64,000 bases of DNA, taken from NCBI RefSeq assembly GCF_014138265.1, contig NZ_JACGXL010000001.1, positions 310,001 through 374,000 of the forward strand, given 5' to 3'. The translations under genes were made by a program, and so were the position numbers. Position 1 is the first letter of the stretch, and every line of letters begins with the position of its first letter. Under the pieces are notes generated by a model. That model did not search any database. It was not told the origin of the DNA and saw nothing but the letters and a program-made list of their open reading frames with translations. Below, in pieces: positions 30,147 through 51,925 of this stretch. Source of the stretch: Dokdonella fugitiva. Its GTDB lineage: Bacteria > Pseudomonadota > Gammaproteobacteria > Xanthomonadales > Rhodanobacteraceae.

Positions 30147-30175
30147 AATCTACTGTGCGCAGTAGTTTGTGTCAA
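30147..30175 (-). promoter_or_regulatory. Leftward early promoter with operator in the spacer (methyltransferase operon)
   Basis: On the minus strand TTGACA (30175-30170) and TAGATT (30152-30147) are exactly 17 bp apart, a near-consensus sigma-70 promoter. The spacer and -10 edge contain the dyad CTACTGTGCGCAGTAG (30150-30165 on the plus strand), one of a set of repeats in this prophage. A bound repressor would occlude the promoter. It would drive the methyltransferase and the genes down to the AlpA-like gene. Confidence 0.8.
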
Positions 30176-30202
30176 GCCGTCCCAAGGGGCGAAATCGCTG
30201 CC

Positions 30203-31279
30203 TTAGACGTGGCGGCCGTCGAATGCCGTGCGCAGGAGGTCGGCGCCGGCGTCACCGATCATCGCGGGGTCGATCACGCGCAACTCGTCCGAGGTGTAGC
30301 AGTTCGCCGCGGGATCGCCGTTGCGGAACGTGCGGCCGTCCGGCATGCGGTACTCGACCCAGTTCGCTACCGGGTCAGCATCGACCGCCTCGGCGAACGG
30401 GATCAGCTTCGGGATGTAGCGATGGCCGGCGCAGCCCTTGAGCTGTTCGGCCTTCGTGATGTCGCGCTTGCGCCGCGCGCACGACCATCGCCCGTCGCCG
30501 TCCATCTCGGGCGTCGCGTGCGCGCAGGTGCGGCAGTTGACCGCGGGCATCGCGCGACCGTGGCAGAGCGAGTAGAGCTGGCACATCTTGCACTGGTACC
30601 AGCCGGGATTGTCCGACAGCTTCGGCGGCGGCTCGGCCGCGGTGATGATCCGCTCCGCGCGATCGCGCAGCGTGCGCGCGAGGTCAAGATTCGCGTCGGT
30701 GCGCACGCCGACCATCGCTCGCGCGCCGGGGCTCGAGCACGTGAGGTAGTGCCGCGGCGCCTCCGCGTACGCCATGTACATCACAGCCTGGGCATAGTAC
30801 GTGTAGTCCCATTCGTGCAGCGCGTTCTTCTCGCCGACCTTCTGCTTGAGCTTGATGAGGTCGGCGTGCTTCTTCTCGTTCGTCGCCTTGCCTTCCCACA
30901 CGTGCAGCGCCTTCGGCGCCTGCAGGAGGCCCGTGACCATGCCGTCGCAGTGGCCGCGAAAATGGCCGCCGAGGTCGGCGAAGCCGAACTGCTGCCCGGT
31001 CCGCGGATCCACGGTGCGAAGGTGCACGCCGGGCACGAGTCGCAGGCGCGCGGCCATGACTTCCTCGCTGCGGTGGCCGTCCTCGAAGCGCCAGAGCGCG
31101 TCGACGGAGTAGGGCGACGGCATGGCCCATCGGAACGTCAGCCACAACTCGCGATCGCACGGTCGCCCGATCGACGACATGCCCAGGTACGTGCGCGGTT
31201 CCTCGGCCGCTGCGCGCGCCTCGACGGCGGCGCGCAGGGCATCGATGGTCGGATCGGCGATGGCGGGGATCGCGACCAT
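30203..31279 (-). CDS. RecB/Cas4-like PD-(D/E)XK exonuclease
   Basis: The 358-aa protein has the nuclease core HCDGMVTGLLQ with the metal-binding Asp, HVWEGKATN as the E-x-K element, and a downstream YYAQAVMYMAY helix. Cysteines at IGRPCDRE and in QCKMCQLYSLCHG resemble the Fe-S cluster of AddB/Cas4-type nucleases. A Cys-rich C-terminal part (CRTCAHATP, WSCARRKRD, GCAGHRY) is extra. With the DUF669 and Sak4-like proteins upstream it forms a phage recombination module. There is no CRISPR context. Confidence 0.82.
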   Translation of the reverse strand: MVAIPAIADPTIDALRAAVEARAAAEEPRTYLGMSSIGRPCDRELWLTFRWAMPSPYSVDALWRFEDGHRSEEVMAARLRLVPGVHLRTVDPRTGQQFGFADLGGHFRGHCDGMVTGLLQAPKALHVWEGKATNEKKHADLIKLKQKVGEKNALHEWDYTYYAQAVMYMAYAEAPRHYLTCSSPGARAMVGVRTDANLDLARTLRDRAERIITAAEPPPKLSDNPGWYQCKMCQLYSLCHGRAMPAVNCRTCAHATPEMDGDGRWSCARRKRDITKAEQLKGCAGHRYIPKLIPFAEAVDADPVANWVEYRMPDGRTFRNGDPAANCYTSDELRVIDPAMIGDAGADLLRTAFDGRHV

Positions 31280-31285
31280 GGGCGT

Positions 31286-31557
31286 CTACTCGCTCTTGCC
31301 GAACGAGTGCTCGTAGCCAGCCGGCGGCGCCGCGTTCGCCGCATCCTGCAGCGCGCGCGCCACCGCGGCATCCTCGACCTTCATGCCGCGACCGACGAGG
31401 TCGACGAGTTCGTTCTGGCTCGCGACATCGGCCACGAGCAGGTCGTCGGCGACATGGCGAATCGCCTGCGCCTGCTGCAGGCGCGGACGAGTCGCGGCGT
31501 GCCGCTGTCCGTCCAGCGCGCGCCCGTTCCCTTCACGATGTAGATGCGGTCGCTCAT
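31286..31557 (-). pseudogene. Phage protein with an apparent -1 frameshift (about 90 aa if restored)
   Basis: The start at 31557 (MSDRIYIVKG) overlaps the upstream stop as ATGA and reads to ...TPRLVRA. Continuity then passes to the -1 frame as LQQAQAIRHVADDLLVADVA and ends GYEHSFGKSE at 31286. The combined sequence looks like a known type of small phage protein (MSDRIYIV...LVRA..QAIRHV). No canonical slippery heptamer is at the junction, so a one-base deletion or sequencing error is more likely than programmed shifting. Confidence 0.55.
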
Positions 31558-32042
31558 GCCGGCTCGCTCCCGTCACCCTTCGACTTCGCGGCCTTGCCGA
31601 TCTTGTCGATCTTGTCGAGCACGAGCGCGCCCTGGTCCGGCTCCGGCTTCACGTCGCTGCCGCCGCCGGAGAACGCCTCGACGTCCGCGACGACGATGTA
31701 GACGCGGGAGCCCTGCGCATCCATGAGTTCGTGCCGCTTCGGATCGAACTGCGGCAACGACAGCACGGCCTTGATGCCGTCCTTGACCGTGATGCTCTCC
31801 AGCGTGCCGCGGATGCGCGCGTAGCCCTGCGTCGCGATGATCCGCACCGATTCCTCGACGGCGTTGCGGACGCGCTCGCGCACGCGGTCGATGACGTTCT
31901 GCTGTTCGGCCTCGCCGAGCTTCTGCCACACGTCGGGCGCGGCCTTCATCTCGTCGATGCACAGCTTCATGAGGTCGCCGAGCATTGTTTCGGCGGCGAC
32001 CTCGGTCGCGACGGTTGCCGTCGCGTTCGCTTCGTTGTCCAT
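31554..32042 (-). CDS. Phage hypothetical protein (162 aa)
   Basis: A soluble alpha-rich protein with DVWQKLGEAEQQNVIDRVRE and a beta-rich core (ITVKDGIKAVLSLPQFDPKR, SRVYIVVADVEAF). It resembles conserved proteins encoded next to phage DUF669/Sak4 genes, but no function is established from sequence. The last codons overlap the start of the next gene. Confidence 0.65.
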   Translation of the reverse strand: MDNEANATATVATEVAAETMLGDLMKLCIDEMKAAPDVWQKLGEAEQQNVIDRVRERVRNAVEESVRIIATQGYARIRGTLESITVKDGIKAVLSLPQFDPKRHELMDAQGSRVYIVVADVEAFSGGGSDVKPEPDQGALVLDKIDKIGKAAKSKGDGSEPA

Positions 32043-32105
32043 GGGTACTCCGGGGTGATCGCGAAAAAGCCCGGCGCCCGTGCGGGCGCGCCGGGGCGGA
32101 GTGAA

Positions 32106-32657
32106 TCAGGCCGCGGCGTCGCCGGCCGGGCGCGGCTGAGCCCACGACGGCTTGCCGGCCGGCGCGGCGGGTGCGGCGTTGCCGACGACGCCGCGCGTAG
32201 CCGGTGCCGGAGGAAGGCCAGCGGCAGCCGTCGCCGCGCCATCGATGCGCTTCCAGCCGCGGACCTCGTTGCCGTCTTTCTGCTGCACGCGGCCGCGCCG
32301 GTCGGTCGTGCCGGCCGGGATGAACTCGACGCGGATGATGTGCGGGATGTTGTGCAGCATTGCGGAGTCCGGCGACTCACGCAGCCCGCAGGCGGCGCGG
32401 ATCGACGCCAGGTGCTCGTTCGCGATACGCACGGTGTCGGCGTTCAGATTGTCGAGGTTCAGGCGAGCCCACACCTGACGACCGGTCATCGGCCCTTCGA
32501 CGATGCGATAGGTGAGTTCGAGATACTGACCGTCGTTCGTGCGCGTCGGCTTGAGATCCGAGTCGATGATCTGTGCGACGTACTCGCCGGACGGGACGGG
32601 CGAGAAATCGGTGGCCGGCTGAGCGTTGGGATCGACGTACTGACCGATGAAAGCCAT
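32106..32657 (-). CDS. DUF669 family phage protein, probable ssDNA-binding accessory of recombination
   Basis: A 183-aa protein whose N-terminal ~125 aa match DUF669: MAFIGQYVDPNAQP, SGEYVAQIIDSDLKPT, DGQYLELTYRIVEGP, GRQVWARLNLDN and ANEHLASIRAACG. A disordered Ala/Pro-rich tail ends WAQPRPAGD, the acidic-tail-like arrangement seen in SSB-type proteins. Its neighbour is a Sak4-like ATPase, a frequent pairing in phages. ATG at 32657. Confidence 0.8.
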   Translation of the reverse strand: MAFIGQYVDPNAQPATDFSPVPSGEYVAQIIDSDLKPTRTNDGQYLELTYRIVEGPMTGRQVWARLNLDNLNADTVRIANEHLASIRAACGLRESPDSAMLHNIPHIIRVEFIPAGTTDRRGRVQQKDGNEVRGWKRIDGAATAAAGLPPAPATRGVVGNAAPAAPAGKPSWAQPRPAGDAAA

Positions 32658-32698
32658 GATGGTGTCCTCTTGCGGGTTGGTGTTGGGGTTGCGGGGGA

Positions 32699-33463
32699 TC
32701 AGGCGGCGGCCGGTTCGGCCGGCGCCGGCGGGGTGATGGCCTGCACCAGCGCAGACCAGTCGAGCGGCAGCGGATCGGGAAGGCCGAAGCGGTTCTTCGC
32801 GATGTACGCCGGCGATTCGTTGACGCGCAGCACGCGGCGACCGGTGGCGATGCCGCGCGTGCGGTTCTGGAAGCCCTGCGCTTCCTTCTTGATGGCGGTT
32901 TCGACCTGGGCGAGCCCGACGATGTCGGCCCATTCGACGACGAGCGCCGCGGCGCCGCGGTGCAGCTTGAGCACGTAGCGATCGAACGCATCCATGTCGG
33001 GCGCGTCGAACCGCTTCACTTCGGTGTGCGCGATCAGGATGGTGGCCATGCCGCGCGCGCGGACCGCGTTGAGCTTTTCGAGCACAACGCGCCAGTACGA
33101 CGTCGCCTCGATGTACCCCTTGCCGTACGGGATCGCCTCGATCGAGTCCTTGCCGGCGTCGCGTGCGACGCGATTCCAGATCAGCGGTTCCAGCCAGTCG
33201 ACCGAGTCGAGCACGGCCGTGCCGAACTCGTGCGGCTCGTTGGCGAGACTGTCGAGCGCCTGCACGGCCTGCTCGAACGTGGTCAGGAGCGGGAACGCGT
33301 CCGTCTCGATGCCGGTCAGTCCATCCTCGAACGGCAGGAAGATCGGCTTGTACGCGTTCGCGGCGAACGTGCTCTTGCCGACACCTTGGACGCCGTGCAC
33401 GACGATCCGAGGCGGCGCGCTGGCGCGCGTCGTGCGAGCGATGCTGGAAAGGGAAATGGCCAT
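32699..33463 (-). CDS. Sak4-like RecA-fold ATPase (ssDNA annealing/recombination)
   Basis: The 254-aa protein has Walker A HGVQGVGKST near residue 23-32, an acidic PFEDGLTGIET region, Walker-B-like AVLDSVDWLEP, and ILIAHTEVKRFDAP as the sensor region. These fit the AAA_24/Sak4 family of phage-encoded single-strand annealing or exchange proteins. With the exonuclease (30.2 kb) and DUF669 protein it makes a complete recombination module. Confidence 0.85.
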   Translation of the reverse strand: MAISLSSIARTTRASAPPRIVVHGVQGVGKSTFAANAYKPIFLPFEDGLTGIETDAFPLLTTFEQAVQALDSLANEPHEFGTAVLDSVDWLEPLIWNRVARDAGKDSIEAIPYGKGYIEATSYWRVVLEKLNAVRARGMATILIAHTEVKRFDAPDMDAFDRYVLKLHRGAAALVVEWADIVGLAQVETAIKKEAQGFQNRTRGIATGRRVLRVNESPAYIAKNRFGLPDPLPLDWSALVQAITPPAPAEPAAA

Positions 33464-33470
33464 GTTCGGG

Positions 33471-33584
33471 TTACTCCGTGATGGGATTCATGTTGGGAGG
33501 AGCGGGCCGGCGCTGATCTCCGGCTTCGCGGGCACTATTCCTCTCCCGCCGACTCCCTTTCGGGCTGCGCATCAGCCTGCGCAT
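33471..33584 (-). CDS. Possible basic peptide (37 aa)
   Basis: Fills the gap between the Sak4-like gene and the 74-aa gene. The ATG at 33584 has GGAG about five bases upstream. The product is arginine-rich (MRRLMRSPKGSRRERNS) and ends NPITE. It lacks the overlap junctions seen elsewhere, so support is weak. Confidence 0.3.
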   Translation of the reverse strand: MRRLMRSPKGSRRERNSAREAGDQRRPAPPNMNPITE

Positions 33585-33600
33585 TCCGCTCCGTGATCTG

Positions 33601-33825
33601 TCAGGCGTCGAGCATCACGTGGACGTTGTCCGCATGCGATTCGCACTGGACGCGTTCGGCGCAGCCAGCGAGGGCCTCGTCGCCCTGACGCCGGATATGC
33701 CATCCGTCGGCGGTGCCGCACGGGTTCTCCTGCTCGGCGAACGCGAGAACTTGGTCATCGGTCCAGTCGCGCGGCACGCAAACCTGCATGTCGAGGAATC
33801 CGCGGCGGGTAACTTCGGCGTTCAT
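33601..33825 (-). CDS. Phage hypothetical protein (74 aa)
   Basis: Reads LDMQVCVPRDWTDDQVLAFA then ENPCGTADGWHIRRQGDEAL, resembling small phage proteins of unknown function with a conserved WTDDQV..FAE helix and a GW core. It is followed by an apparently untranslated or lightly coding gap to the Sak4-like gene. Confidence 0.65.
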   Translation of the reverse strand: MNAEVTRRGFLDMQVCVPRDWTDDQVLAFAEQENPCGTADGWHIRRQGDEALAGCAERVQCESHADNVHVMLDA

Positions 33826-33828
33826 GTC

Positions 33829-34230
33829 TCACTCCGTCAGGTTGATGGGTTCGATCGACACGGCCGCCTTCGCCGGCGTGACCGTGATCGCGGCGGCGAT
33901 GCGGTGGTGCAACTCGGGGTCGTTGCGCTCGACGTAGCGCAGCTCGGACAGGCACACGGCCGGCTTGAACTGGAACACGCGGTCGCGGATCGCGTCCGGC
34001 AGGTGCTGCCAGATCGTTTTCAGCACGGCCTCGTCCACGCTGCGATTGAGCTTGCCGGTCGTCGTGACCTTGAAGCGGTCGCTGCGAAACGTGGTCGCGC
34101 CTTCGTCCTTCACGCCGACGAGCGCGATCAGCTCGCCTTCCGCCGCGATGCGCGCGTCACGCGCTGCATTCTCGGCGGCCTTGCACTGCTGCAGCCGGTC
34201 GGCGGCCGCGTTGATGTTCTCGAAAGCCAT
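33829..34230 (-). CDS. Phage hypothetical protein with helical N-terminus (133 aa)
   Basis: The N-terminal helix (DRLQQCKAAENAARDARIAA) is followed by a beta-rich domain (TTFRSDRFKVTTTGKLNRSV) and FQFKPAVCLSELRYVE. Proteins of this layout are common near phage recombination genes. Start MAFEN at 34230 has a GAGG upstream. No function assigned. Confidence 0.65.
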   Translation of the reverse strand: MAFENINAAADRLQQCKAAENAARDARIAAEGELIALVGVKDEGATTFRSDRFKVTTTGKLNRSVDEAVLKTIWQHLPDAIRDRVFQFKPAVCLSELRYVERNDPELHHRIAAAITVTPAKAAVSIEPINLTE

Positions 34231-34236
34231 GGCTCC

Positions 34237-34458
34237 TCACTCGCCGCGTCGCGCGGCAAACGTCAGTGGTTCGGGCGCGCCGTCCAGGCACTCAGCGAGT
34301 GCGTATGCGTCGGCCTCGGAAAGGTCGCGGCGTTGCTCCAGCGCGCCGCGCGCTCCTGCTGTAGTGGCGGGGGAACTCGCCACGGAAACCAGGCGCCGGA
34401 CTGGGGTCGGGCGGGATGCGCTGCCTCGCGGCAGTGCGGATGTCGTGGTCCGCTTCAT
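34237..34458 (-). CDS. Phage hypothetical protein (73 aa)
   Basis: A basic, low-complexity N-terminal half (MKRTTTSALPRGSASRPTPV) precedes a short helical acidic segment (LSEADAYALAECLDGAPEPL). The ATG at 34458 overlaps the stop of the upstream membrane peptide. Unknown function. Confidence 0.5.
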   Translation of the reverse strand: MKRTTTSALPRGSASRPTPVRRLVSVASSPATTAGARGALEQRRDLSEADAYALAECLDGAPEPLTFAARRGE

Positions 34459-34562
34459 GCGGGCCACCGCAGGGAAAGGCCGAACGTGAGCCCGAGCATC
34501 ACGACTACGAGAGTCGCGATCGTGAGTTCCCACAAGAACGCGAGTGCGCGGCGCGCGGTCAT
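34455..34562 (-). CDS. Single-span membrane peptide (35 aa)
   Basis: MTARRALAFLWELTIATLVV continues as a hydrophobic helix to about residue 31 and ends LRWPA. Start and stop both overlap neighbours through ATGA, the best evidence for translation. Function unknown. Confidence 0.5.
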   Translation of the reverse strand: MTARRALAFLWELTIATLVVVMLGLTFGLSLRWPA

Positions 34563-34774
34563 GGCTTGCGCTCCGTCGTCGGCGCGTAGCCGTCCAGCGC
34601 CGCACGGATCTCGTCCGTGGTCCACATGCCAGCGAAGCGCCCGTCGACCGTCTCGCAGTCGTGCATCCCCGCAGCGACTCGGCGCGAGTGCTTCCATTCA
34701 CGGCCCTTGCGATCGCGCCAGCGCGTGTCGCGCGTGATCGCTGACTTGCGGCGGCGAGCGGCGAGGGCGGTCAC
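34559..34774 (-). CDS. Phage hypothetical protein (71 aa)
   Basis: GTG at 34774 overlaps the upstream stop (GTGA). A basic N-terminal half (ARRRKSAITRDTRWRDRKGR) is followed by GMHDCETVDGRFAGMWTTDE and a short helix. No family recognised. Confidence 0.5.
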   Translation of the reverse strand: MTALAARRRKSAITRDTRWRDRKGREWKHSRRVAAGMHDCETVDGRFAGMWTTDEIRAALDGYAPTTERKP

Positions 34775-35091
34775 AGCGCACCGACCTGCACGAGCGCGGC
34801 GCGCAGACGCTTCGCCGCTTCGTGCTGTTCCGCGCTGCATCCGGTGATGCGGCCGCGACGCTTGCCGTCTGGATCGGTCACGAGTTCGTCGCGCGACTCG
34901 TCAACGCAGAAGTCGCGGAAGTAGGCCGCGCTCACCGCGATAACGCTTTCGACGCGAGCCCGCGCAACTCGAAGTTCGCGCGCAGCCCCGCGGTGATCGA
35001 TGCTGCTGACCTCGTTTGTGGCGTGGTCCGCAGCGATGTCGAGCCGCGTCGCGCAGTGGCGCATGACGGACAGGATGGGAAGCACGCTCAC
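34771..35091 (-). CDS. Phage hypothetical protein (106 aa)
   Basis: Mostly helical (RELRVARARVESVIAVSAAY, then FRDFCVDESRDELVTD) with a C-terminal CSAEQHEAAKRLRAALVQVG helix. Overlaps both neighbours at start/stop junctions. Function unknown. Confidence 0.6.
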   Translation of the reverse strand: MSVLPILSVMRHCATRLDIAADHATNEVSSIDHRGAARELRVARARVESVIAVSAAYFRDFCVDESRDELVTDPDGKRRGRITGCSAEQHEAAKRLRAALVQVGAL

Positions 35092-35471
35092 GGCTGCGAT
35101 CCTTGGATGGCGGCGAGGGCGGCGACGATGCGGTTGTAATGCGCTTGCGTTGGTTTGTCGCGCAGGCCGAAATGGCGTTCGTCCCTCACGCGATCGGAGT
35201 GCGTCAGCGCCTTCTTGACCGCCTCCACCAGCTCTGCCACAGCGGCATCACGCGCCCGGCGCTCGATGACCTCGGCGAGGATAGAAGCGATTGAATCGCG
35301 CGCTCTGCGAACCTCTCCGACCCATCGCACGACGGTCGGGTCAGGTTCGTATCCCCTGCGTGCCGGAGCGTCGCACCATTCCGCATAGTGAACGGACGCG
35401 CAATTCACGATGTCCGGCATGCGGTCAATCGCGGCAAGCAACGCTTCCACGTCGATGCGTTCGGTGCTCAT
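35088..35471 (-). CDS. Phage hypothetical protein (127 aa)
   Basis: A helical soluble protein: VEALLAAIDRMPDIVNCASV, VRRARDSIASILAEVIERRA, AELVEAVKKALTHSDRVRDE and a C-terminal HYNRIVAALAAIQG. Nothing diagnostic seen. ATGA overlaps at both ends. Confidence 0.6.
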   Translation of the reverse strand: MSTERIDVEALLAAIDRMPDIVNCASVHYAEWCDAPARRGYEPDPTVVRWVGEVRRARDSIASILAEVIERRARDAAVAELVEAVKKALTHSDRVRDERHFGLRDKPTQAHYNRIVAALAAIQGSQP

Positions 35472-35677
35472 GCGGCACCTGCCTTGATGCGACGAGCGCG
35501 TCGCAGATAGAAGTCACGATGCCAGCGCGAATGGCAGGCCGTGCGCTCATTCATCCCGGCGAACACGCGCATTAGCTCGCGGTGGTGCTCGATCGCCGAA
35601 CAAACCGCACGCTTGATACTCTCCGCGGCGCCGTAGTCCTCTTGGTTTTCCGGGTGCGTCCAGTCGCGTGCGTTCAT
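35468..35677 (-). CDS. Phage hypothetical protein (69 aa)
   Basis: MNARDWTHPENQEDYGAAES is followed by a helical stretch (IKRAVCSAIEHHRELMRVFA) and a basic C-terminus (FYLRRARRIKAGAA). The ATG at 35677 overlaps the upstream stop. Unknown. Confidence 0.55.
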   Translation of the reverse strand: MNARDWTHPENQEDYGAAESIKRAVCSAIEHHRELMRVFAGMNERTACHSRWHRDFYLRRARRIKAGAA

Positions 35678-35907
35678 GCCGCACCTGCCTTCGCCAGCGC
35701 GGCGCTTCCGGCACCCGTCAGCCTCACACACGCATGCGGGCCGTCTGTGCGGTCGCCGACACGGCAATATTCCGCCCATCCGCGCGCCACAAGTTTCGAG
35801 TACATATGCGCGAGTCGGCCGCGCGTCATTCGTGGAATTGGCTCTCGCGTCTTGATGCAATGCATCGCATGCGCCTGCGCGGGCGTCGGCGTGTGCTGCG
35901 CGCTCAT
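35674..35907 (-). CDS. Phage winged-helix-like small protein (77 aa)
   Basis: The start at 35907 gives MSAQHTPTPAQAHAMHCI. The centre (RMTRGRLAHMYSKLVARGWA) and ACVRLTGAGSAALAKAG look like a small winged-helix unit. Its first codons and last codons are nearly identical at DNA level to those of the 94-aa gene at 36427-36711, though the middles differ. Confidence 0.6.
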   Translation of the reverse strand: MSAQHTPTPAQAHAMHCIKTREPIPRMTRGRLAHMYSKLVARGWAEYCRVGDRTDGPHACVRLTGAGSAALAKAGAA

Positions 35908-36137
35908 GCGACCGCCTTGAGCGCCGGGCGCTCGTGCAGCATTTCCATGAGTTCCATCGGCAGGCACACGTCGATGTTGTAGTCGCGTTCGATTCGGTCG
36001 AGCGCGTCGCGGTAGCGCAGCGGACTGGCGAGGTCGAAGCGAAGCGATGCGGTGTCGAGCGAGTAGTTGCGGCGCAAGATGCGCAGCTCGTACTCGACGG
36101 CGATGATGGCAGCGTCGATGAGAGCTTCGCGATTCAT
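35904..36137 (-). CDS. Phage hypothetical protein (77 aa)
   Basis: ALIDAAIIAVEYELRILRRN and LRYRDALDRIERDYNIDVCL followed by PMELMEMLHERPAL indicate an all-helical small protein. ATG at 36137 overlaps the previous stop as TGATG. Unknown function. Confidence 0.55.
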   Translation of the reverse strand: MNREALIDAAIIAVEYELRILRRNYSLDTASLRFDLASPLRYRDALDRIERDYNIDVCLPMELMEMLHERPALKAVA

Positions 36138-36430
36138 CACGGCGCGTGCTCCATGTAGTTGCCGGTCACGATCGCGGCGGCCGCCTTCGCAAGCGCCTCG
36201 TCCGTGGTCGCGTACTGGAGTTCGCCGGCATACGCCTCGACGCGCGGGTCGTGCACGAACAGGACGATGCGGCCGTGGCGACCGAACCCGATGTGGCGCA
36301 TGCGCACCGTCACGGTATGCGCGTCGAACTGGAACGCGCGCCATGCCTTCGGTCCGGAGTTCTCGACGCCGCTGCGCAGGTCGCGCAGTTCGTCGAGGAT
36401 CGAGGCTTGATCGTGGGCGGCGGCGGTCAT
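36137..36430 (-). CDS. Phage hypothetical protein (97 aa)
   Basis: An N-terminal helix (ASILDELRDLRSGVENSGPK) precedes a beta-rich part (FDAHTVTVRMRHIGFGRHGR, IVLFVHDPRVEAYAG) and a short helix. No family recognised; coupled at both ends. Confidence 0.6.
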   Translation of the reverse strand: MTAAAHDQASILDELRDLRSGVENSGPKAWRAFQFDAHTVTVRMRHIGFGRHGRIVLFVHDPRVEAYAGELQYATTDEALAKAAAAIVTGNYMEHAP

Positions 36431-36711
36431 GGCGCACCTGCCTTCGCCAGCGCGGCGCGGGCGTCAGCGAGGAACGTCGCGTTCGGCATCCGAGCCTCAG
36501 CCGCCTCCACGGCGCGGCGCAGTGCCGCGACCAGCTCGTCATGCGCATTGCAGGCGCGGACGATGAAGGCGGCGTTGTTCGCCGGCGATTCCACGTGACG
36601 GCCGTGAAATACGGCCGCGTCCGCCACTGCGAAACCGTCGTCGGCGTAAATGATCCGCTCGGCTTTTCCCTCGCCGGTATGCCACGGCGTCGGCGTGTGC
36701 TGCGCGCTCAT
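36427..36711 (-). CDS. Phage HTPTPWH-type small protein (94 aa)
   Basis: Begins MSAQHTPTPWHTGEGKAERI and continues IIYADDGFAVADAA, ANNAAFIVRACNAHDELVAA, a pattern seen in many temperate phages of proteobacteria where the function is unknown. It ends with a helical ARAALAKAG stretch. Shares both ends with the 35674 gene. Confidence 0.7.
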   Translation of the reverse strand: MSAQHTPTPWHTGEGKAERIIYADDGFAVADAAVFHGRHVESPANNAAFIVRACNAHDELVAALRRAVEAAEARMPNATFLADARAALAKAGAP

Positions 36712-36989
36712 GCCTCGGCCTGCTGCGCGTCAGCCGCGTCGAGTTCGTCGGAAACCTGATTGAGGAGCGCGGCGAGTTCGCGGGCGCGGGTCGTGTTGAG
36801 CCCGACCATCGCCAAGCCGCTGAGCATCGCGAGCATCACCAGCGGGGGATTCGGGCGGCGCAGGCCGGGGACCGGGTGCGCGGGCATGGCGATGACTTCG
36901 ATCGCGCGAGCGCCCCAATGGTCGGGGATCGCGGCGCAGTGCGTTGCCTTCGGGTTCGCGTTCGGGTTCGCGTTCGGGTTCGTGCTCAT
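36708..36989 (-). CDS. First gene of the leftward early operon: NPNA-repeat membrane-like protein (93 aa)
   Basis: ATG at 36989 follows GGAGAACGGAACCC. The N-terminus is a low-complexity MSTNPNANPNANPK repeat. A moderately hydrophobic stretch (LVMLAMLSGLAMVGLNTTRA) could be a membrane segment, followed by a helical acidic tail. It is the first gene downstream of the 37.05-kb operator/promoter, so it should be an immediate-early product. Function unknown. Confidence 0.55.
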   Translation of the reverse strand: MSTNPNANPNANPKATHCAAIPDHWGARAIEVIAMPAHPVPGLRRPNPPLVMLAMLSGLAMVGLNTTRARELAALLNQVSDELDAADAQQAEA

Positions 36990-37009
36990 GGGTTCCGTTC
37001 TCCGCCGGT

Positions 37010-37079
37010 CTATCGCCGGCAGTAGAAAGGTATCACCCAAGAGCAGGCATGTCTACCGTGTGCAGTAGATGTGCGTCAT
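37010..37079 (-). promoter_or_regulatory. Leftward early promoter with two operator copies
   Basis: The dyad CTACCGTGTGCAGTAG (37053-37068) overlaps a minus-strand -10-like TAGACA (37055-37050). A -35-like ATGACG (37079-37074) lies 18 bp upstream. A weaker copy CTATCGCCGGCAGTAG lies at 37010-37025 in the leader. The layout mirrors the 30.15-kb promoter, where the dyad also ends in the TAG of the -10. Confidence 0.7.
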
Positions 37080-37086
37080 GAAAATT

Positions 37087-37114
37087 ACCTATCGGAACTG
37101 GTATTCCGATAGGT
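37087..37114 (-). terminator. Hairpin after the repressor gene, probable terminator
   Basis: A perfect 11-bp inverted repeat (ACCTATCGGAA / TTCCGATAGGT) with a six-base loop lies 27 bp past the repressor stop. On the minus strand it is followed by AATTTT, as in an intrinsic terminator. It could isolate repressor transcription from the early operon. The stem is only moderately GC-rich, so an operator function is not excluded. Confidence 0.55.
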
Positions 37115-37141
37115 GCTGTCAATGGTAGGCGATGGCGCCCG

Positions 37142-37531
37142 CTATTTCAGGGTCTTTCGGGTCAGCTGCGCCAGCGATTCGGCATGCTGCAGGATGACAT
37201 CGCGCACCGACTCCGGGGCGGTGCGGAAAATCGCGATCAGCCGCGACTCGCGGTCATCGCCCGACGAGATTTCCGAGAGGGAGACCGGCGCCTTCGATGC
37301 ACGCTGGCCGCGCCCTGTTTCGAGCCACAGCGAATTCACCCCGTACACGGCCGCCAGTTTCGGCAACTGCATCGAACGCGCGACCGTGCCCTTTTCGAGG
37401 TTCACGAGCGTGTTGTAGGGGATGCCGGCCAGGTTCGCGGCCTGCGGGCGCGTGAGCTGCGCCGCCTCACGGGCAGCGCGAATACGGGCGGCCATGGCCG
37501 TCGCGGGCTTGACGATCGGTTTGTTAGGCAT
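37142..37531 (-). CDS. XRE-family (CI-like) repressor, short form without peptidase domain
   Basis: The 129-aa protein has an N-terminal HTH (AREAAQLTRPQAANLAGIPY then NTLVNLEKG) and MQLPKLAAVYGVNSLWLETG, the usual end of an XRE domain. A C-terminal helical region ends FRTAPESVRDVILQHAESLA. No S24 (LexA/CI) autoprotease domain is present, so induction would not rely on RecA-stimulated self-cleavage. It is divergent from the Cro-like gene across operator repeats and probably binds the CTAC-N8-GTAG dyads. Confidence 0.82.
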   Translation of the reverse strand: MPNKPIVKPATAMAARIRAAREAAQLTRPQAANLAGIPYNTLVNLEKGTVARSMQLPKLAAVYGVNSLWLETGRGQRASKAPVSLSEISSGDDRESRLIAIFRTAPESVRDVILQHAESLAQLTRKTLK

Positions 37532-37577
37532 GGCGGGATGATGCCGGCTCTCAGCTACTACGGCGCATGGATCGTCA

Positions 37578-37633
37578 CTACCGCCGGCGGGGACCGCACA
37601 CGGTTGCGCACGACCTACCGCCGGCGGTAGACT
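37578..37633 (+). promoter_or_regulatory. Switch-region operators and the Cro promoter
   Basis: A perfect palindrome CTACCGCCGGCGGTAG lies at 37615-37630, and a second copy with a degenerate right half starts at 37578. TTGCGC (37604-37609) and TAGACT (37628-37633) are 18 bp apart and point right. The dyad again ends in the TAG of the -10. The second copy overlaps a weak minus-strand TAGTGA that could serve the repressor gene. Confidence 0.72.
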
Positions 37634-37640
37634 GGAATCC

Positions 37641-37892
37641 ATGAGGCATGAAAAGGACGAAAACGACTGGTCGGCCCGAGTAATCGAACTCGAGCGTTTC
37701 GGCCTGTCGCTGACGCTCATCGGTGAATCGGTCGGACTCAGCATCCAAGGTATCTCCGATCTCAAGCACGGTCGCCGACGCGAACCGCGCGGGATGGTCG
37801 CCGTGCGCCTCTGGAATCTCCACCGGCGCACGCTCTGCCGCCGTCGCCACGGATCAGCCGCGGCCGACGACACGACGCAGGCTGCCGCATGA
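37641..37892 (+). CDS. Cro-like small HTH regulator (83 aa)
   Basis: MRHEKDENDWSARVIELERF precedes an HTH: LSLTLIGESVGLSIQGISDL then KHGRRREPRG. A basic tail follows. The ATG is only seven bases past the -10 hexamer, so the mRNA may be leaderless. Being the first rightward gene opposite the repressor, it is the Cro equivalent. Confidence 0.7.
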   Translation: MRHEKDENDWSARVIELERFGLSLTLIGESVGLSIQGISDLKHGRRREPRGMVAVRLWNLHRRTLCRRRHGSAAADDTTQAAA

Positions 37893-37945
37893 GCCGCGCA
37901 AACGCTCGCAAGATCGCCGCCGCCGCCATGCGGAGCGCCCGATGA
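37889..37945 (+). CDS. Possible 18-aa coupling peptide
   Basis: A mini-frame (MSRANARKIAAAAMRSAR) starts by ATGA overlap with the Cro-like stop and stops by ATGA overlap with the CII-like start. It may only maintain translation between the two genes. Confidence 0.25.
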   Translation: MSRANARKIAAAAMRSAR

Positions 37946-38259
37946 GCGAGCCCGGCGCGCAGGCGATCCAAACCGCGATCCTTCGTGCGCTTGCCGAGCG
38001 CGGGCAGTCCGCCGTCGCCGCTGAAACCGGGATCTCCGATACGCGGGTCTCCCGCTGGAAGTCCTGCGCGCCCGACGGCGGCGGACTCGACATCCTCGAA
38101 ACCGCGCGCGTGCTCTCGGCCCTCGGGCTCACCGTCGTTCCGCTCGATCCCGACGGCATGGTCGTCGTCCCTGTGAGCACGCATTCCGCGCTGCATGTCC
38201 TGCTCCGCGACTACGCGGACACGATGCTGAGCGGCAAGGGCCGCCCGGAATGCAAATGA
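37942..38259 (+). CDS. CII-like HTH activator (105 aa)
   Basis: The N-terminal AIQTAILRALAERGQSAVAA then ETGISDTRVSRWKS is a classic CII/HTH pattern, followed by LDILETARVLSALGLTVVPL and a helical tail. Location after Cro and before replication genes matches lambdoid cII. It overlaps the primase start by 10 bp. Activator function is inferred from position and fold. Confidence 0.75.
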   Translation: MSEPGAQAIQTAILRALAERGQSAVAAETGISDTRVSRWKSCAPDGGGLDILETARVLSALGLTVVPLDPDGMVVVPVSTHSALHVLLRDYADTMLSGKGRPECK

Positions 38260-44829: not shown

Positions 44830-44833
44830 CGCG

Positions 44834-44879
44834 TTGGAACTGCCGTATGTAGTAGGATATGCTCTACCGAGCACAGTAG
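44834..44879 (+). promoter_or_regulatory. Promoter with operator before the PAPS-reductase-like gene
   Basis: TTGGAA (44834-44839) and TATGCT (44858-44863), 18 bp apart, form a plausible sigma-70 promoter. The dyad CTACCGAGCACAGTAG (44864-44879) sits just downstream, over the expected start site, within a longer symmetry GCTCTAC...GTAGAGC. It is the same operator family as in the early region, so this late-region gene may be independently repressor-controlled. Confidence 0.65.
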
Positions 44880-44890
44880 AGCACCGATCC

Positions 44891-45586
44891 ATGCCGCTTT
44901 CCGGCGCCGAAACCATCGCCCGAGTTCGACAGCACCAGCGGGAAACCCTGCTGGCGTTCTCGTGCGGGAAGGATGCCATCGCCGCGTGGATCGCGATCCG
45001 CCCGCACTTCGACCGCGTGATCCCGTTCTACCTGTACTCGGTGCCCGGACTCGAGTTCGTCGAGGAATCGCTGGACTACTACGAGCGGTTCTTCGGCACG
45101 AAGATCATCCGCCTGCCGCATCCGGCGCTGCACACCTGGCTCAACGGCTTCATGTTCCAGCCGCCGGAGCACTGCGCGGTGATCGAGCAGGCCGAACTCG
45201 GCGAGCACAGCTACAACGACATCCACGACGCGATCGTCGAGGACCATGGGTTGCAGGAGGACATCCTGTATGCGACTGGGGTGCGCGCCGCCGATTCGCC
45301 GCTGCGCCGCGTCGCGATCAACAAGCACGGGCCCATCACCTGGTCGCAGCACAAGTACCACCCGGTGTGGGACTGGAACAAGCAGGCACTCGTCGACTGC
45401 TTCCGCCGCGAGGGCGTGAAGCTGCCGGTCGACTACGCGATGTTCGGGCGCACGTTCGACGGACTCGATCTGCGGTTCCTGCTGCCGCTCAAGCGGCACC
45501 GCCCGCGCGACTACCGGCGCGTTCTCGAGTTCTTTCCGCTGTGCGAACTCGAAATCAAACGATGGGAGTACGCACGTGCCAGTTGA
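44891..45586 (+). CDS. PAPS-reductase/ATP-pyrophosphatase-like phage protein (231 aa)
   Basis: The protein has the PP-loop LLAFSCGKDAIAAWIAI (SGGKDS-type), FYLYSVPGLEFVEESLDYYE and KIIRLPHPALHTW. A central YATGVRAADSPLRRVAINKH (R-x-A-E/D-S type) and a KYHPVWDWNKQALVD helix follow. It belongs to the PAPS-reductase/adenine-nucleotide alpha-hydrolase superfamily that includes DndC and phage members of unknown role. No other sulfur-assimilation or Dnd gene is seen. It has its own operator-bearing promoter and overlaps the next gene. Confidence 0.8.
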   Translation: MPLSGAETIARVRQHQRETLLAFSCGKDAIAAWIAIRPHFDRVIPFYLYSVPGLEFVEESLDYYERFFGTKIIRLPHPALHTWLNGFMFQPPEHCAVIEQAELGEHSYNDIHDAIVEDHGLQEDILYATGVRAADSPLRRVAINKHGPITWSQHKYHPVWDWNKQALVDCFRREGVKLPVDYAMFGRTFDGLDLRFLLPLKRHRPRDYRRVLEFFPLCELEIKRWEYARAS

Positions 45587-46043
45587 TCGGAGCGCCATGC
45601 GTGCGCAAGCCGATGCGAAGCGCAGCGAGGCGCGGCAGAAGGCCGCGGCCGCTCTCATCGAGGCAGCTGCTGCGAAGGAGCGCAGGCGCAATCCGCCGCC
45701 GAAGCTCGTCGCGATGCCTGAGCCGACCGGCAACACCGAGGCCGATGCGAAAGCGGACCTCGATGCGCTTGTCGGCGGTTTCCGCGAGCGCGCCAAGGCC
45801 GAGTCGCGTCGCTTCGAACTCGCCACCGACTCCGAGTATTGGTGCTGCCTGTGCTTCCAGACGCGTGAGCAGAAGGAAGCCTTCCTCGGCGCACTGAACC
45901 TGCTGCTGCACGGCGACAAGTACATCGACGGCCGTGTCGTGGCGAAACAGCTTGGCATCTCGTTGCCAGCGGCCGACGTGCCCTACAACACGAGCGCCAA
46001 GGTTGACCCGACGTGGGTCGAATTCATCGACAAGAAGAGGTAA
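45576..46043 (+). CDS. Phage protein adjacent to the PAPS-reductase-like gene (155 aa)
   Basis: GTG at 45576 overlaps the upstream gene by 11 bp. A long Ala/Arg/Lys-rich helix (RSEARQKAAAALIEAAAAKE) precedes a compact domain (SEYWCCLCFQTREQKEAFLG then ALNLLLHGDKYIDGRVVAKQ). The close overlap suggests that it works with the PP-loop protein, but the family function is unknown to me. Confidence 0.65.
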   Translation: MPVDRSAMRAQADAKRSEARQKAAAALIEAAAAKERRRNPPPKLVAMPEPTGNTEADAKADLDALVGGFRERAKAESRRFELATDSEYWCCLCFQTREQKEAFLGALNLLLHGDKYIDGRVVAKQLGISLPAADVPYNTSAKVDPTWVEFIDKKR

Positions 46044-46049
46044 TACGAC

Positions 46050-46187
46050 ATGGCAACGCGAATCGGCAAGAAGAAGGGCGCGGCGAAGGGCAAGCCGAAG
46101 CGGAAGGCGGCGAAGATCACGGCACAGCGCCGTGGCGGCGCGCGTCGCGCCGGTTCCGCTGCGGCGTCCCGCACGTCCGGCAGCTGA
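46050..46187 (+). CDS. Very basic small protein (45 aa)
   Basis: Lys/Arg-rich (MATRIGKKKGAAKGKPKRKA then AKITAQRRGGARRAG), likely to bind DNA or RNA non-specifically, like small histone-like or decoration peptides. It lies six bases after the 155-aa gene and before the small terminase. Confidence 0.5.
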   Translation: MATRIGKKKGAAKGKPKRKAAKITAQRRGGARRAGSAAASRTSGS

Positions 46188-46234
46188 GGGCTACGGACGG
46201 CAGCGACCACTATGGCGCTGTCGTCCCTTCCGCC

Positions 46235-46753
46235 ATGACCAAGCGCAAGAGCACGCCGGGCAAGAAGCGCCGTCTGAGCAACGGCGCGTCGACCGCGCCC
46301 GAGACGATCGCATGCCGCGAGCGCAACGCGAAGGCGCTGCAGCTCCGCAAGGAGGGCATGAACTTCGAGGACATCGCGCGCGAGTGCGGCTTCACGTCGC
46401 GCCAGCGCGCGCACGAGGCCGTCACCGCGGAGATAAAGCGCATCACGCGCGAGCCTGCCGAGGACGTGCTGGTGCTCGAGCTGGAGCGCCTGGACGCGAT
46501 GTTCACGACGCCCTATCTCAACGCGCAGGCCGGCGATCTGAACGCGATCAACGCGTGCCTGCGCATCATGGATCGCCGCGCCGCGCTCCTCGGCATCGAC
46601 GCGCCGAAGAAGGTCGAGGCGAAGGTCGAACAGCGCGGCGGCGTGCTCATGGTCCCCGCGGCGGTCACGCCGGAGGAATGGGCGAAGGCGGCCGAGGCGC
46701 AGCAGCGTGCTCTCGCGGAGAGCGAGAAGGATTCGGAGTTGCCGGACGCATGA
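46235..46753 (+). CDS. Probable terminase small subunit (172 aa)
   Basis: After a basic N-terminus an HTH (KALQLRKEGMNFEDIARECG then FTSRQRAHEAVTAEIKRI) is followed by a helical oligomerisation region (DVLVLELERLDAMFTTPYLN, INACLRIMDRRAALLGID) and an acidic C-terminal tail. Its end overlaps the large terminase start (ATGA), the standard TerS-TerL arrangement; it would recognise the packaging site. Confidence 0.78.
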   Translation: MTKRKSTPGKKRRLSNGASTAPETIACRERNAKALQLRKEGMNFEDIARECGFTSRQRAHEAVTAEIKRITREPAEDVLVLELERLDAMFTTPYLNAQAGDLNAINACLRIMDRRAALLGIDAPKKVEAKVEQRGGVLMVPAAVTPEEWAKAAEAQQRALAESEKDSELPDA

Positions 46754-49182
46754 CCTCGCTCGCCGCCCAGTCGTTGACGCAGGCGGTGCGCGGCGAGATC
46801 GTGTGGGCGCCGCACCCGGGCTCGCAGGTTATCTTCCTGTCGTGCCCGATCTACGAATGCCTGCTGCAGGGGACGCGTGGCGGCGGGAAAACCGATGCTC
46901 TGCTCATGGACTACGCGCAGCACGTCGGCCGCGGGTTCGGCGCGGCGTGGCGCGGCATCCTGTTCCGCCAGACCTACCCGCAGCTCGCCGACGTCGTCGC
47001 GAAGTCGAAGAAGCTGTTCTATCGCATCTTCCCCGGCGCGAAGTTCAACGCCAGCGACTACACCTGGACGTTCCCAGGCGGCGAACAGCTCTTGCTTCGG
47101 CACATGAAAACGCCGGACGACTACTGGAACTACCACGGCCACGAGTATCCGTGGATCGGGTTCGAGGAGCTGACGAACTGGCCGACTGCCGAGTGCTACG
47201 AGAGCATGTTCGCGTGCTCGCGCTCGTCGCATCCCGGCATGCCGCGCAAGTACCGCGCGACGTGCAACCCGTACGGCCGCGGGCACTGCGTTCCCTATGG
47301 CGATGTGCTCACTCCGAACGGCTGGCGTGACATCAAGGACATCAAGATCGGGGACACGGTGTATTCGGTCGATTCTGCTGGCGCGATCGTCGAGAAAACG
47401 GTCGAGCAGCTATACCGCGGAAAATACATCGGCGACATGGTGTACCGCGAGGGTCGCGGGATATTCATGGCGATGACGCCGAATCATTCGCTTCCGAAAA
47501 TTGGAGGAAAGAATGGCCAAGCGTACACGCTCGTTCCGTTCGAGGAATTGCCTGGTCAGGCTGACATTCTTCGCACGGCCGAGTTCGATGGGGAGCCGAT
47601 CAGGATTTTTGAGTGCCCTGTGTATCCGACGCGTTCGCGTCGCGTGAAGCAGCCAGCGCGAATCAGCGGAATGCAGTTCGCCGAGCTGATGGGTTGGTTC
47701 CTGTCGGAGGGGAGTACGATCGATCGCGACAAGGCTTTCAATATCGCACAGATGAAGCCCAAGAATCGCGAACGCATCGCCGCGCTACTGGACGAATGCG
47801 GCTTCAAGCAGAGCTGGAATGCGAACGACGTGACGGTGTACGCGCCCGATTGGTGGGCGTACCTGCGGCAGTTCGGGAAGTGTCGCGACAAGTACGTCCC
47901 GGCAGAGATAAAGAACGCTTCGCGCGAGCAGATCACCGCGTTCTGCACAGCGGCAATGAATGGCGACGGGCATTGGTCAGGAACGGGGGGCTGCTACTAC
48001 ACGACGTCGCAGCGGCTAGCTGACGACATGGCAGAGCTGTTCGTGAAGCTCGGATACGCGGTCAACGTCAGCAGCCGAGCGCGAAAGAATCGCGACGGGT
48101 TGTCGTACACCGTTCACTTCAAGCGCGGTCGAACCATTCAGCTCGTTACCGGACAGCATCGGTACAACGTCAAGTCGAGCTGCGCGTCAGTTAACGTTCG
48201 TCGCGAGTCGTTCGACGGCGAGGTGTATTGCATCGGTGTCGCTGACACGCATTCGTTCTTCATCCGTCAGAACGGCAGCGTTTGGCTTTCTGGCAACACG
48301 TGGGTCAAGCAACGCTTCATCGACCCGGCCCCGTCTGGAACGGTAATCCGAGAGCCGGGGAAGCCCGAGCGCGTCAATATCCACAGTTCGCTGCTCGAGA
48401 ACACGCACCTGCTCGCCGCGGATCCCGAGTACCTGACCAAGCTGCGCGCGATCAGCGACCCGAACAAGCGCAAGGCATGGCTGTTCGGCTCGTGGGAGAT
48501 TACGAGCGGCGGTATGTTCGACGACCTGTGGAAGCCCGAGGCGCACATCGTGCCGGTGTTCGACATCCCGGCCGGCTGGCGCATCGACCGCTCGCTCGAC
48601 TGGGGCAGCTCGCGGCCGTTCTCCGTCGGCTGGTGGGCGGAGTCCGACGGGTCGCCGGCGATCATCGCCGGCCGCCAGCGCACGCTTCCGCGCGGCACGC
48701 TCGTTCGGCTCGCCGAGTGGTACGGCAGCACGGGCAAGGCGAACGAAGGCCTGCGCCTGACCGCGGGCAAGGTCGCCGAGGGCATCAAGCAGCGCCAGGT
48801 CGATCTCGCGATCGCGCAGCGCGTGAAGCCGGGCCCGGCCGACTCGTCGATCTTCGACGTCACGGACGAGGCCAGCATCGCCGACAACATGGCCAAGATC
48901 GGCATTCGGTGGGAGCCGGCCGACAAGCGCGCGGGCAGCCGCAAGAACGGGTGGGAGCTGATGCGCGAGCGCATGGAGGCATCGCTGCACGACAACGGCA
49001 AGCCCGGGTTCCTCGTCATGGACCGCTGCCGCGACTTCATCCGCCTCGTGCCGTCGACCTCGAGGGACGAGGACGACCCGGACGACATCGACACCGAGTC
49101 CGAGGACCACATCCACGACGAGACGCGCTACCGCGTGCTCGCCACCGCGCGCTCCGTGCGCACGCAAGCCCTTCCGTTCTGA
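46750..49182 (+). CDS. terL: Terminase large subunit interrupted by an intein
   Basis: The 810-aa precursor contains a TerL of about 473 aa after removal of residues 180-516. The ATPase part has Walker A LLQGTRGGGKTDALL, Walker B YPWIGFEELTNWP and the coupling region YRATCNPYGRGH. The C-extein resumes TWVKQRFIDP and holds the nuclease region (RSLDWGSSRPFSVGWW; DSSIFDVTDEASIADNM). It packages DNA into the prohead and cuts concatemers, and must be spliced to work. It overlaps TerS and precedes the portal gene. Confidence 0.9.
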   Translation: MTSLAAQSLTQAVRGEIVWAPHPGSQVIFLSCPIYECLLQGTRGGGKTDALLMDYAQHVGRGFGAAWRGILFRQTYPQLADVVAKSKKLFYRIFPGAKFNASDYTWTFPGGEQLLLRHMKTPDDYWNYHGHEYPWIGFEELTNWPTAECYESMFACSRSSHPGMPRKYRATCNPYGRGHCVPYGDVLTPNGWRDIKDIKIGDTVYSVDSAGAIVEKTVEQLYRGKYIGDMVYREGRGIFMAMTPNHSLPKIGGKNGQAYTLVPFEELPGQADILRTAEFDGEPIRIFECPVYPTRSRRVKQPARISGMQFAELMGWFLSEGSTIDRDKAFNIAQMKPKNRERIAALLDECGFKQSWNANDVTVYAPDWWAYLRQFGKCRDKYVPAEIKNASREQITAFCTAAMNGDGHWSGTGGCYYTTSQRLADDMAELFVKLGYAVNVSSRARKNRDGLSYTVHFKRGRTIQLVTGQHRYNVKSSCASVNVRRESFDGEVYCIGVADTHSFFIRQNGSVWLSGNTWVKQRFIDPAPSGTVIREPGKPERVNIHSSLLENTHLLAADPEYLTKLRAISDPNKRKAWLFGSWEITSGGMFDDLWKPEAHIVPVFDIPAGWRIDRSLDWGSSRPFSVGWWAESDGSPAIIAGRQRTLPRGTLVRLAEWYGSTGKANEGLRLTAGKVAEGIKQRQVDLAIAQRVKPGPADSSIFDVTDEASIADNMAKIGIRWEPADKRAGSRKNGWELMRERMEASLHDNGKPGFLVMDRCRDFIRLVPSTSRDEDDPDDIDTESEDHIHDETRYRVLATARSVRTQALPF
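47287..48297 (+). other. Intein with LAGLIDADG-type endonuclease domain, inside TerL (337 aa)
   Basis: It begins with Cys1 (CVPYGDVLTPNGWRDIKDIK, block A with IGDTVYSVD) and has block B AMTPNHSL with the conserved His. The homing-endonuclease blocks are FAELMGWFLSEGS (131-143) and FCTAAMNGDGHW (219-230). Block F is EVYCIGVADTHSFFI, and the intein ends SGN before Thr+1. The usual penultimate His is Gly, which is tolerated in some inteins. Third codon positions here are visibly more A/T-rich than the flanking exteins, a sign of separate origin. Confidence 0.92.
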
Positions 49183-50597: not shown

Positions 50598-50600
50598 GCC

Positions 50601-51581
50601 ATGGCCGCCGACAGCGCCGACGCCGATCGCTACACGCGCCGCGCGCTCGCGCTGCTGCGCGCCGTCAACGGCATGGAGGCCGAGAACGCGCGCGAGCTGC
50701 GATCGCTCGCCGCGGAGATCCGCGCCATCCTCGGCACGGCTGCGCTCGATGCGCTCAACCGACGCGCGCTGGCGGCGCTCGTGCGCGAGATCGCGGCCGC
50801 CGTGACCGAGTCCTACGTCGCGATGTACGAGACGCAGGCGGCGTCGCTGGTCGAGCTCGCCGAGATCGAGGCGAAGTGGGCGAGCGGGGCAGGGGCGGCG
50901 CCACGCGTTGCGAGCGCGACCGCGATCGACGAGGCGATGTCCGGCCTGCTCGTGCAGGGCGCGCCGCTGCGCGACCAGTGGGTGCGGCAGGGCGAGGAAC
51001 TGGCCTGGCGCATGGCGAGCGCGGTGCGGACGGCCGCGACCACGCCGCAGCCCGCGCAGGCGGCCGCGAAGGCCATCGTGGGCAACCCGCGCACGCTGCG
51101 CGGGGGGCTGATCGAGAAGGCGCGCAACGACGCCGCAGCGCTGATCGACACGGCCGCGCACACGGCCGCCTACGCGGGCCGGCTCGCCACGTTCGCGGCG
51201 TCCGGCGTCAACGCGCTCGAGTGGTTCTCGATCCTCGACAGCCGGACGACCATCGGCTGCGCGGTGCGCGCTGGCAAGCTCTACACGCTCGATTTCGAGC
51301 CGATGGGGCACACGATCCCGATCGAGCGCCCGCCGCCGCGGCACTGGCGCTGCCGGTCGATCCTGCTGCCGCACAAGTACCCGGACGGCCCGCCGCCCGA
51401 TGGCGGCCCGCAGCGCGACAGCTTCGCGACGTGGCTCGCGAAGCAGCCGAAGGCGACGCAGGACGAGCTGCTCGGGCGCGGTCGCGCGGATCTCTGGCGC
51501 GGCGGCAAGATCACGCTGTCGGACCTCATCGGCCAGCGCGGGCAGACGCTCACGCTGGCGGAGTTGCGCGAGCGCGGCTAG
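50601..51581 (+). CDS. Minor head protein, MuF/SPP1 gp7-like (326 aa)
   Basis: A long helical N-terminal region is followed by FAASGVNALEWFSILDSRTT then IGCAVRAG, and PPPRHWRCRSILLPH, the conserved C-terminal MuF-like module (LDSRTT..C..R.G....PP.H..CR). These proteins are injected or help head assembly. Its stop overlaps the antisense gene at 51578-51844. Confidence 0.83.
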   Translation: MAADSADADRYTRRALALLRAVNGMEAENARELRSLAAEIRAILGTAALDALNRRALAALVREIAAAVTESYVAMYETQAASLVELAEIEAKWASGAGAAPRVASATAIDEAMSGLLVQGAPLRDQWVRQGEELAWRMASAVRTAATTPQPAQAAAKAIVGNPRTLRGGLIEKARNDAAALIDTAAHTAAYAGRLATFAASGVNALEWFSILDSRTTIGCAVRAGKLYTLDFEPMGHTIPIERPPPRHWRCRSILLPHKYPDGPPPDGGPQRDSFATWLAKQPKATQDELLGRGRADLWRGGKITLSDLIGQRGQTLTLAELRERG

Positions 51582-51844
51582 CGGTAGTTCGTATTGCGCC
51601 AGACTGCAAGCCACATCGCCAGCAGGTCGCGATCGACATAGTGCTTTTCCGGGAATGCAGCCAAGAGCGAATCTGCAAGACCTTCGATCTCGGCGTCGTC
51701 TCCGCTGCGCATGATCGTATCGACTTGCTTCGCGGGAATTTTCACCACGCTCTGTCCTTGCCACTGTGCGTCGACGTCTTGCCCTTCGCGCAAGTAGAAG
51801 CTCGCCTCGCCGGCACTGTAGTTGCTGTTCTTCAACGGGAACAT
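51578..51844 (-). CDS. Antisense accessory gene (88 aa) within the head operon
   Basis: The only leftward gene in the 38-64 kb rightward block. ATG at 51844 has GGAGG four bases upstream. The product (MFPLKNSNYSAGEASFYLRE, VVKIPAKQVDTIMRSGDDAE, DRDLLAMWLAVWRNTNYR) is soluble and of unknown family. Less GC-rich than its neighbours, with a degenerate operator just upstream, it looks like a moron expressed apart from the structural genes. Confidence 0.7.
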   Translation of the reverse strand: MFPLKNSNYSAGEASFYLREGQDVDAQWQGQSVVKIPAKQVDTIMRSGDDAEIEGLADSLLAAFPEKHYVDRDLLAMWLAVWRNTNYR

Positions 51845-51898
51845 GTGACCTCCGCAGCATTCGGCGCAATTGCCGAGCCGAAGGATAGTCCCGCGCGT

Positions 51899-51925
51899 TG
51901 ACTACGCGCAGTAGCTTGTCAACAC
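51899..51925. promoter_or_regulatory. Degenerate operator and inverted repeat upstream of the antisense gene
   Basis: CTACGCGCAGTAG (51902-51914) resembles a shortened form of the prophage operator dyad, nested in the longer symmetry GTTGAC (51899-51904) ... GTCAAC (51918-51923). On the minus strand TTGACA (51922-51917) could be a -35 element for the antisense gene; I see no convincing -10. Confidence 0.45.

Follow-up and report, generated by a model that had tools for sequence, protein, structure and literature searches.

Separate promoters of a prophage in Dokdonella fugitiva carry inverted repeats of one type, CTAC-N8-GTAG, and the question that they raise is which protein would bind them and how far its control would extend through the prophage. 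The DNA analysed, hereafter the window, is a stretch of 64,000 nucleotides (assembly GCF_014138265.1, contig NZ_JACGXL010000001.1, positions 310,001 to 374,000) taken from contig 1 of a genome of 4.77 Mb, and all positions are numbered from its first letter. The prophage spans ~53.8 kb (1.13% of the genome) and is bounded by an integrase frame and a 14-bp direct repeat (19603 and 73399), its right end falling beyond the window. Our conclusion, to which we assign a probability of about 0.85, is that these 16-bp dyads are the left and right operator (OL and OR) family of the prophage's own CI/Cro switch, placed at several promoters, binding being predicted from the sequence. Two lines of evidence support a single operator family for the prophage repressor, as an earlier note on this DNA had proposed: the confinement of the motif to the prophage genome-wide, and the same geometry with other bases in ten related cro loci.

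The 12-position consensus CTACYGNNNNCRGTAG has four exact matches in the genome and all of them (30150, 37053, 37615, and 44864) lie in the prophage, so the motif is not spread evenly across the chromosome; read backwards, the consensus has two exact matches in the same genome. These four dyads had been listed in the earlier note, together with 37010, which carries one mismatch. When up to one mismatch is allowed there are 23 sites in the genome, six of them in the prophage where 0.26 would be expected (binomial p 1.8e-7), 37010 and 73262 being the new ones there. The backwards control reaches 132 at this level and exceeds the motif in most genomes of the order examined, and therefore cannot serve as a matched expectation. 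The exact consensus has 45 matches (~0.23 per genome) among the 199 other genomes of this order, and with this genome included it is present in 38 of 200, mostly once in each; genome G135 has six exact matches ~70 bp apart. Within the window, CTAC-N8-GTAG with up to one mismatch occurs 20 times against 5.66 ± 2.51 in shuffles, a soft and weakly informative test because 16 of the 20 matches (five of these 16 left of the prophage) carry one mismatch. The spacing of 8 is specific within the prophage: for CTAC-Nk-GTAG with k from 0 to 20, five are found at k = 8, one at k = 5 (51902), one at k = 9 (73289), and none at any other k, where independent bases would give 0.5 for each k. Listing the prophage's 4-mer dyads by number did not yield a usable ranking, since GC-rich coding words (CGCG, TCGA) took the top places. 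Furthermore, no CTAC-N8-GTAG occurs in the 3.2–3.4 kb around each of the three other CI-like genes of the genome. With every exact site of the 4.77 Mb lying in the prophage, the motif shows no sign of a host regulon, and we find it scarcely credible that the dyads are sites of a host regulator (SOS or another) taken over by the prophage, even though LexA-like control would also fit palindromic 16-bp promoter sites. Exact CTGT-N8-ACAG, the only LexA motif searched, is found in the window just twice, at 37315 within the cI frame and at 41019 within the RusA-like frame, and not in promoters.

The second line of evidence comes from related cro genes. A Cro search of 297 genomes found nine with a match, this one included, and a Cro profile run on 233 genomes of the family gave 106 at E ≤ 0.001, mostly weak, with G720 and G731 as further strong matches. 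We compared nine genomes (G169, G178, G201, G220, G251, G307, G339, G720, and G731) and the viral contig L007, leaving out a weak match in G045. In all ten loci a 16-bp dyad lies in the spacer of the rightward promoter (PR), its end supplies the TAG or TAA of the -10 hexamer, and it stands 8–10 nt before the cro ATG. These dyads are perfect or nearly so, that of G169 being imperfect. The half-sites are TTATGG or CTATGG in L007, G178, G201, and G339, TTACGG in G220, G307, and G720, CTACGG with CAACGG in G169, CTACAG in G251, and CTACGA in G731, and they are CTACCG or CTACTG in this prophage. A second site is located 23 or 24 bp upstream in the relatives, over the -35 hexamer, with a third 13 bp beyond in G201, G339, and G251. 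Moreover, all nine genomes have a like site 0.8–2.2 kb left of cro and left of cI, which we take as OL (with two mismatches in G731). It is because the ten loci share the position of the PR dyad and the nine genomes have the site left of cI that we read the dyads as an OL/OR family. Exact patterns of the genomes' own operators gave 12 sites in seven genomes, 11 of them at OL or OR, the backwards controls giving 10, 5, 2, 0, 0, 3, and 0; G169 had no exact site because its dyads are imperfect. With one mismatch to the per-genome pattern, scans of 60 kb around cro (eight relatives) or 40 kb (G731), stretches that are not necessarily whole prophages, found two stray sites (G251 and G731); there were more strays at two mismatches, a level at which the relatives' sites were counted only at OL or OR. 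A class-wide Cro profile matched 29 of 369 genomes, all weakly except this one, and among eight loci from the class and family profiles checked upstream of cro only L158 and L159 have the architecture. The tandem-operator pattern was present in seven contigs of the viral_contigs set (frames were read for L044); tblastn of CI and Cro on these seven gave just a 30-residue Cro match in L041 (E 0.98), and on the primase relatives L077 and L079–L081 it gave nothing below E 0.03.

In phage lambda, operators separate the divergent cI and cro genes, and there is also an OL site. As in lambda/434 and N15-type switches, the prophage has one operator (37615) between divergent cI-like and cro-like helix-turn-helix (HTH) genes and another at a leftward promoter (37053), and the HTH of CI matches 434 repressor structures (phmmer E 0.0013–0.0058). 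Unlike in those switches, another three promoters have copies of the operator, including one that precedes a PAPS-reductase-like gene and terminase, and the CI has no Peptidase_S24 match. The earlier note had called this CI peptidase-less and had named it, or else Cro, as the repressor; in fact, no S24 domain, the LexA-like self-cleavage domain of lambda-type regions, was detected in its 129 residues. This lack is not unique to this phage, since among seven relatives' CIs scanned (G201, G720, and G731 were left out) L086, L087, L007, and weakly L092 match Peptidase_S24 and L089, L090, and L091 do not.

As to which protein sets specificity, the bases of the dyad apparently vary between phages with the CI recognition helix. 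The CI stretch PYPTLAGIEN is common to the four TATGG phages (L007, G178, G201, and G339), and other helices go with other bases. The recognition helix of Cro is nearly identical in G169 and in G178/L007 (SPQA[VL]SDIKQG), whereas their operators differ (CGG or TGG) and so do their CI helices. A shared Cro helix with unlike operators and unlike CI helices favours CI, which is thus the likelier determinant, as judged from these comparisons. Given that near-identity, we consider it quite improbable that the dispersed sites are bound mainly by Cro instead of CI, with Cro as a down-regulator in the lytic cycle, although cro does adjoin a perfect site and the relatives were themselves found by Cro homology.

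The sites and the main genes are collected in Table 1. At OR the 13 + 24 bp spacing of 37578, 37591, and 37615 is kept as in G201 and G339, with 37591 in register with the relatives' second OR site. The half site that the earlier note had seen at 37578 stands at the relatives' third OR position, but is imperfect. Its list of sites proved incomplete, as 37591, 44840, and 73262 were absent from it. The shortened dyad at 51902 (CTAC-N5-GTAG) was rejected as an operator of this family, since its TTGACA has no -10 hexamer at the proper distance. Promoter hexamers were assigned by reading, besides a consensus scanner run over 29000–48000; the claim that the dyads at 30150, 37053, and 37615 sit in the -35/-10 spacer and give the TAG of the -10 hexamer holds by reading, and the scanner reports 30150 as the sole promoter-like match, with 1.8 expected in shuffles.

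Table 1. Operator sites and associated features of the prophage (numbering of the window; PL, leftward promoter; att, attachment site).
Feature	Position	Strand	Remarks
Left att core TGGCGGAGAGAGTG	19603..19616	none	14 bp; second copy at 73399, within a tRNA-Ser gene (3' end)
Integrase frame	19484-21052		first domain match starts at residue 98
Dyad CTACTGCGCACAGTAG	30150..30165	-	exact consensus; spacer of leftward promoter TTGACA-N17-TAGATT
Second dyad of OL region CTACTGCCGGCGATAG	37010..37025	-	one mismatch; downstream of PL
OL dyad CTACTGCACACGGTAG	37053..37068	-	exact consensus; in PL spacer (ATGACG-N18-TAGACA)
Terminator-like hairpin	37087..37114	-	after the cI gene, directly ahead of PL
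cI-like repressor gene	37142..37531	-	129 aa; HTH_31 and HTH_3
Third OR position CTACCGCCGGCGGGGA	37578..37593	+	three mismatches; 13 bp ahead of the next, like G201 and G339
Second OR position GGACCGCACACGGTTG	37591..37606	+	three mismatches, inner ACCG-N4-CGGT intact; overlaps PR -35; 24 bp before the spacer dyad
First OR dyad CTACCGCCGGCGGTAG	37615..37630	+	exact consensus; PR spacer, supplies TAG of TAGACT; cro ATG 10 nt downstream
cro-like gene	37641..37892	+	83 aa; phrog_6223, phrog_6831; homologues in other genomes
CII-like regulator gene	37942..38259	+	105 aa; Phage_CII; primase also present in prophage
Upstream dyad of late pair CTGCCGTATGTAGTAG	44840..44855	+	two mismatches; 24 bp before 44864 (the OR spacing)
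Late-region dyad CTACCGAGCACAGTAG	44864..44879	+	exact consensus; ATG of PAPS-reductase-like gene 11 nt downstream
PAPS-reductase-like gene	44891..45586	+	heads run into terminase, portal, and head genes
Right-end site	73262, outside window	leftward	one mismatch; TTGACA-N18-TAGATT; 121 bp from tRNA-Ser att core

From these positions we infer a mechanism, including site binding, the dimer, repression, the limits of the operons, and the identity of the binding protein. Each 16-bp site would probably be occupied by a dimer of the 129-aa CI. Since the dyad takes up the -35/-10 spacer and contributes the opening bases of the -10 hexamer, access of RNA polymerase would be blocked once the protein is bound. 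The two early operons would be closed from OR and OL, as in the other members of this phage family, and Cro would compete at OR. With the further copies at 30150, at 44840/44864, and at 73262 (a leftward operon at the right end of the prophage), a single repressor would act directly on most transcription units to silence them.

The spread beyond OL and OR would thus be greater here, at three further promoters, than in the relatives seen. The earlier note had placed accessory genes of the late region under this control, which fits the pair at 44840/44864, heading a run from the PAPS-reductase-like gene to terminase, and fails for 51902; the operon at the right end is an addition. A stronger proposal is that almost all transcription units, the packaging run at its start among them, have acquired a copy of an OR-type operator module, and that a CI that cannot be cleaved thereby exerts direct silencing on early as well as late genes, in a phage with a CII-like gene, while the relatives keep the sites at OL and OR; this is possible, but we advance it tentatively and with less than even confidence. 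The reading of all the sites as operators competes with the option that only OR and OL (37010–37630) are functional, which would leave the late pair and the distant sites as remnants or chance matches. The scanned stretches of the nine related genomes, with OL, OR, and merely two one-mismatch strays, would agree with that option, as would the late pair, which has no good -35 hexamer at the expected distance. We consider it unlikely, however, as 30150 and 44864 are as exact as 37053 and 37615 with no exact genome site beyond the prophage, 30150 and 73262 lie within TTGACA promoters, and 44840/44864 keeps the 24-bp OR spacing at a distance from the ATG (11 nt) close to that at OR (10 nt).

Several observations weigh against reading all these dyads as operators of the CI/Cro switch. 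When the four motif-defining sites are set aside, 2 of 19 sites are in the prophage (p 0.019), so the one-mismatch sites by themselves are just modestly enriched. The -35 hexamers of PR (TTGCGC, a poor one) and PL (ATGACG) both fail the consensus scan, and with the better hexamers of the late pair, TTGGAA-N18-TATGCT, it is 44840 that falls within the spacer, 44864 coinciding with the start point. The positions of 37578 and 37591 agree with those of the relatives' third and second OR sites, but each is three mismatches off, and OL lacks the relatives' second site at 24 bp distance. The argument for CI as the specificity determinant is based on few lineages. Finally, the CI, PAPS-reductase, and primase queries found no close phage relative, the only copy being an identical one in IMG/VR, and the extra sites are consequently not open to a conservation test.

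The gene runs around the sites are taken to be operons, as inferred from gene order. The leftward genes encode a Sak4-like protein, a Cas4-like exonuclease, a C5-methyltransferase, and a helicase, and the 30150 promoter precedes the C5-methyltransferase, dioxygenase-like, and helicase genes; the gene after that for the methyltransferase (26973-27863) matches a PHROG annotated as cysteine dioxygenase. The rightward order is RusA-like resolvase, endolysin, Rz-like spanin, PAPS-reductase-like gene, terminase, portal, and head genes. The frame of the terminase large subunit (45934-49182) has a LAGLIDADG_3 match (residues 665–724) behind the terminase N-terminal match, which looks like an intein or homing-endonuclease insertion. 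Against the head genes runs a leftward 88-aa frame (51578-51844) with no PHROG match and, in viral_contigs, with the same prophage as its sole relative. Leftward genes of unknown function follow 73262, and a 17-bp CTAC-N9-GTAG outside the window (73289-73305; L082:13289-13305) abuts the upstream side of the -35 hexamer of the 73262 promoter. Relatives of the PAPS-reductase-like gene were found at 18 loci (one of the same prophage and one partial), 16 of which were read upstream, and neither CTAC-N8-GTAG nor YTAY-N8-RTAR occurs within 200 bp upstream in any of the 16. In three of them (L058, L060, and L061, the three that were scanned) a small HTH gene lies directly upstream, so an HTH gene and a PAPS-reductase-like gene may be a recurring pair; a spanin-like gene has this place here.

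Dispersed repressor operators are already known, and this prophage would be another instance. The C1 repressor of phage P1 has 22 operators dispersed over the phage genome (PMC8546580); similar sites at several separate transcription units (30150, 37053, 37615, 44864, and 73262) are likewise present here, as sequence only, but P1 has 17-bp asymmetric operators, whereas ours are 16-bp dyads, fewer, and mostly in the -35/-10 spacer. Mycobacteriophage L5 and cluster A phages have many genome-wide sites for one repressor, the site sequence tracking the repressor, and these stoperators, 13 bp long and oriented, lie for the most part outside promoters (PMC6550527), in contrast to the dyads at promoters described here. 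No description of this operator family was found in the open library consulted, within the terms searched. The eleven related CI/Cro switches, with the same PR geometry and different bases, provide a test bed for the co-change of recognition helix and operator. As one of them has operators apparently spread past OL and OR, the growth of repressor regulons from two operators would be testable in this family.

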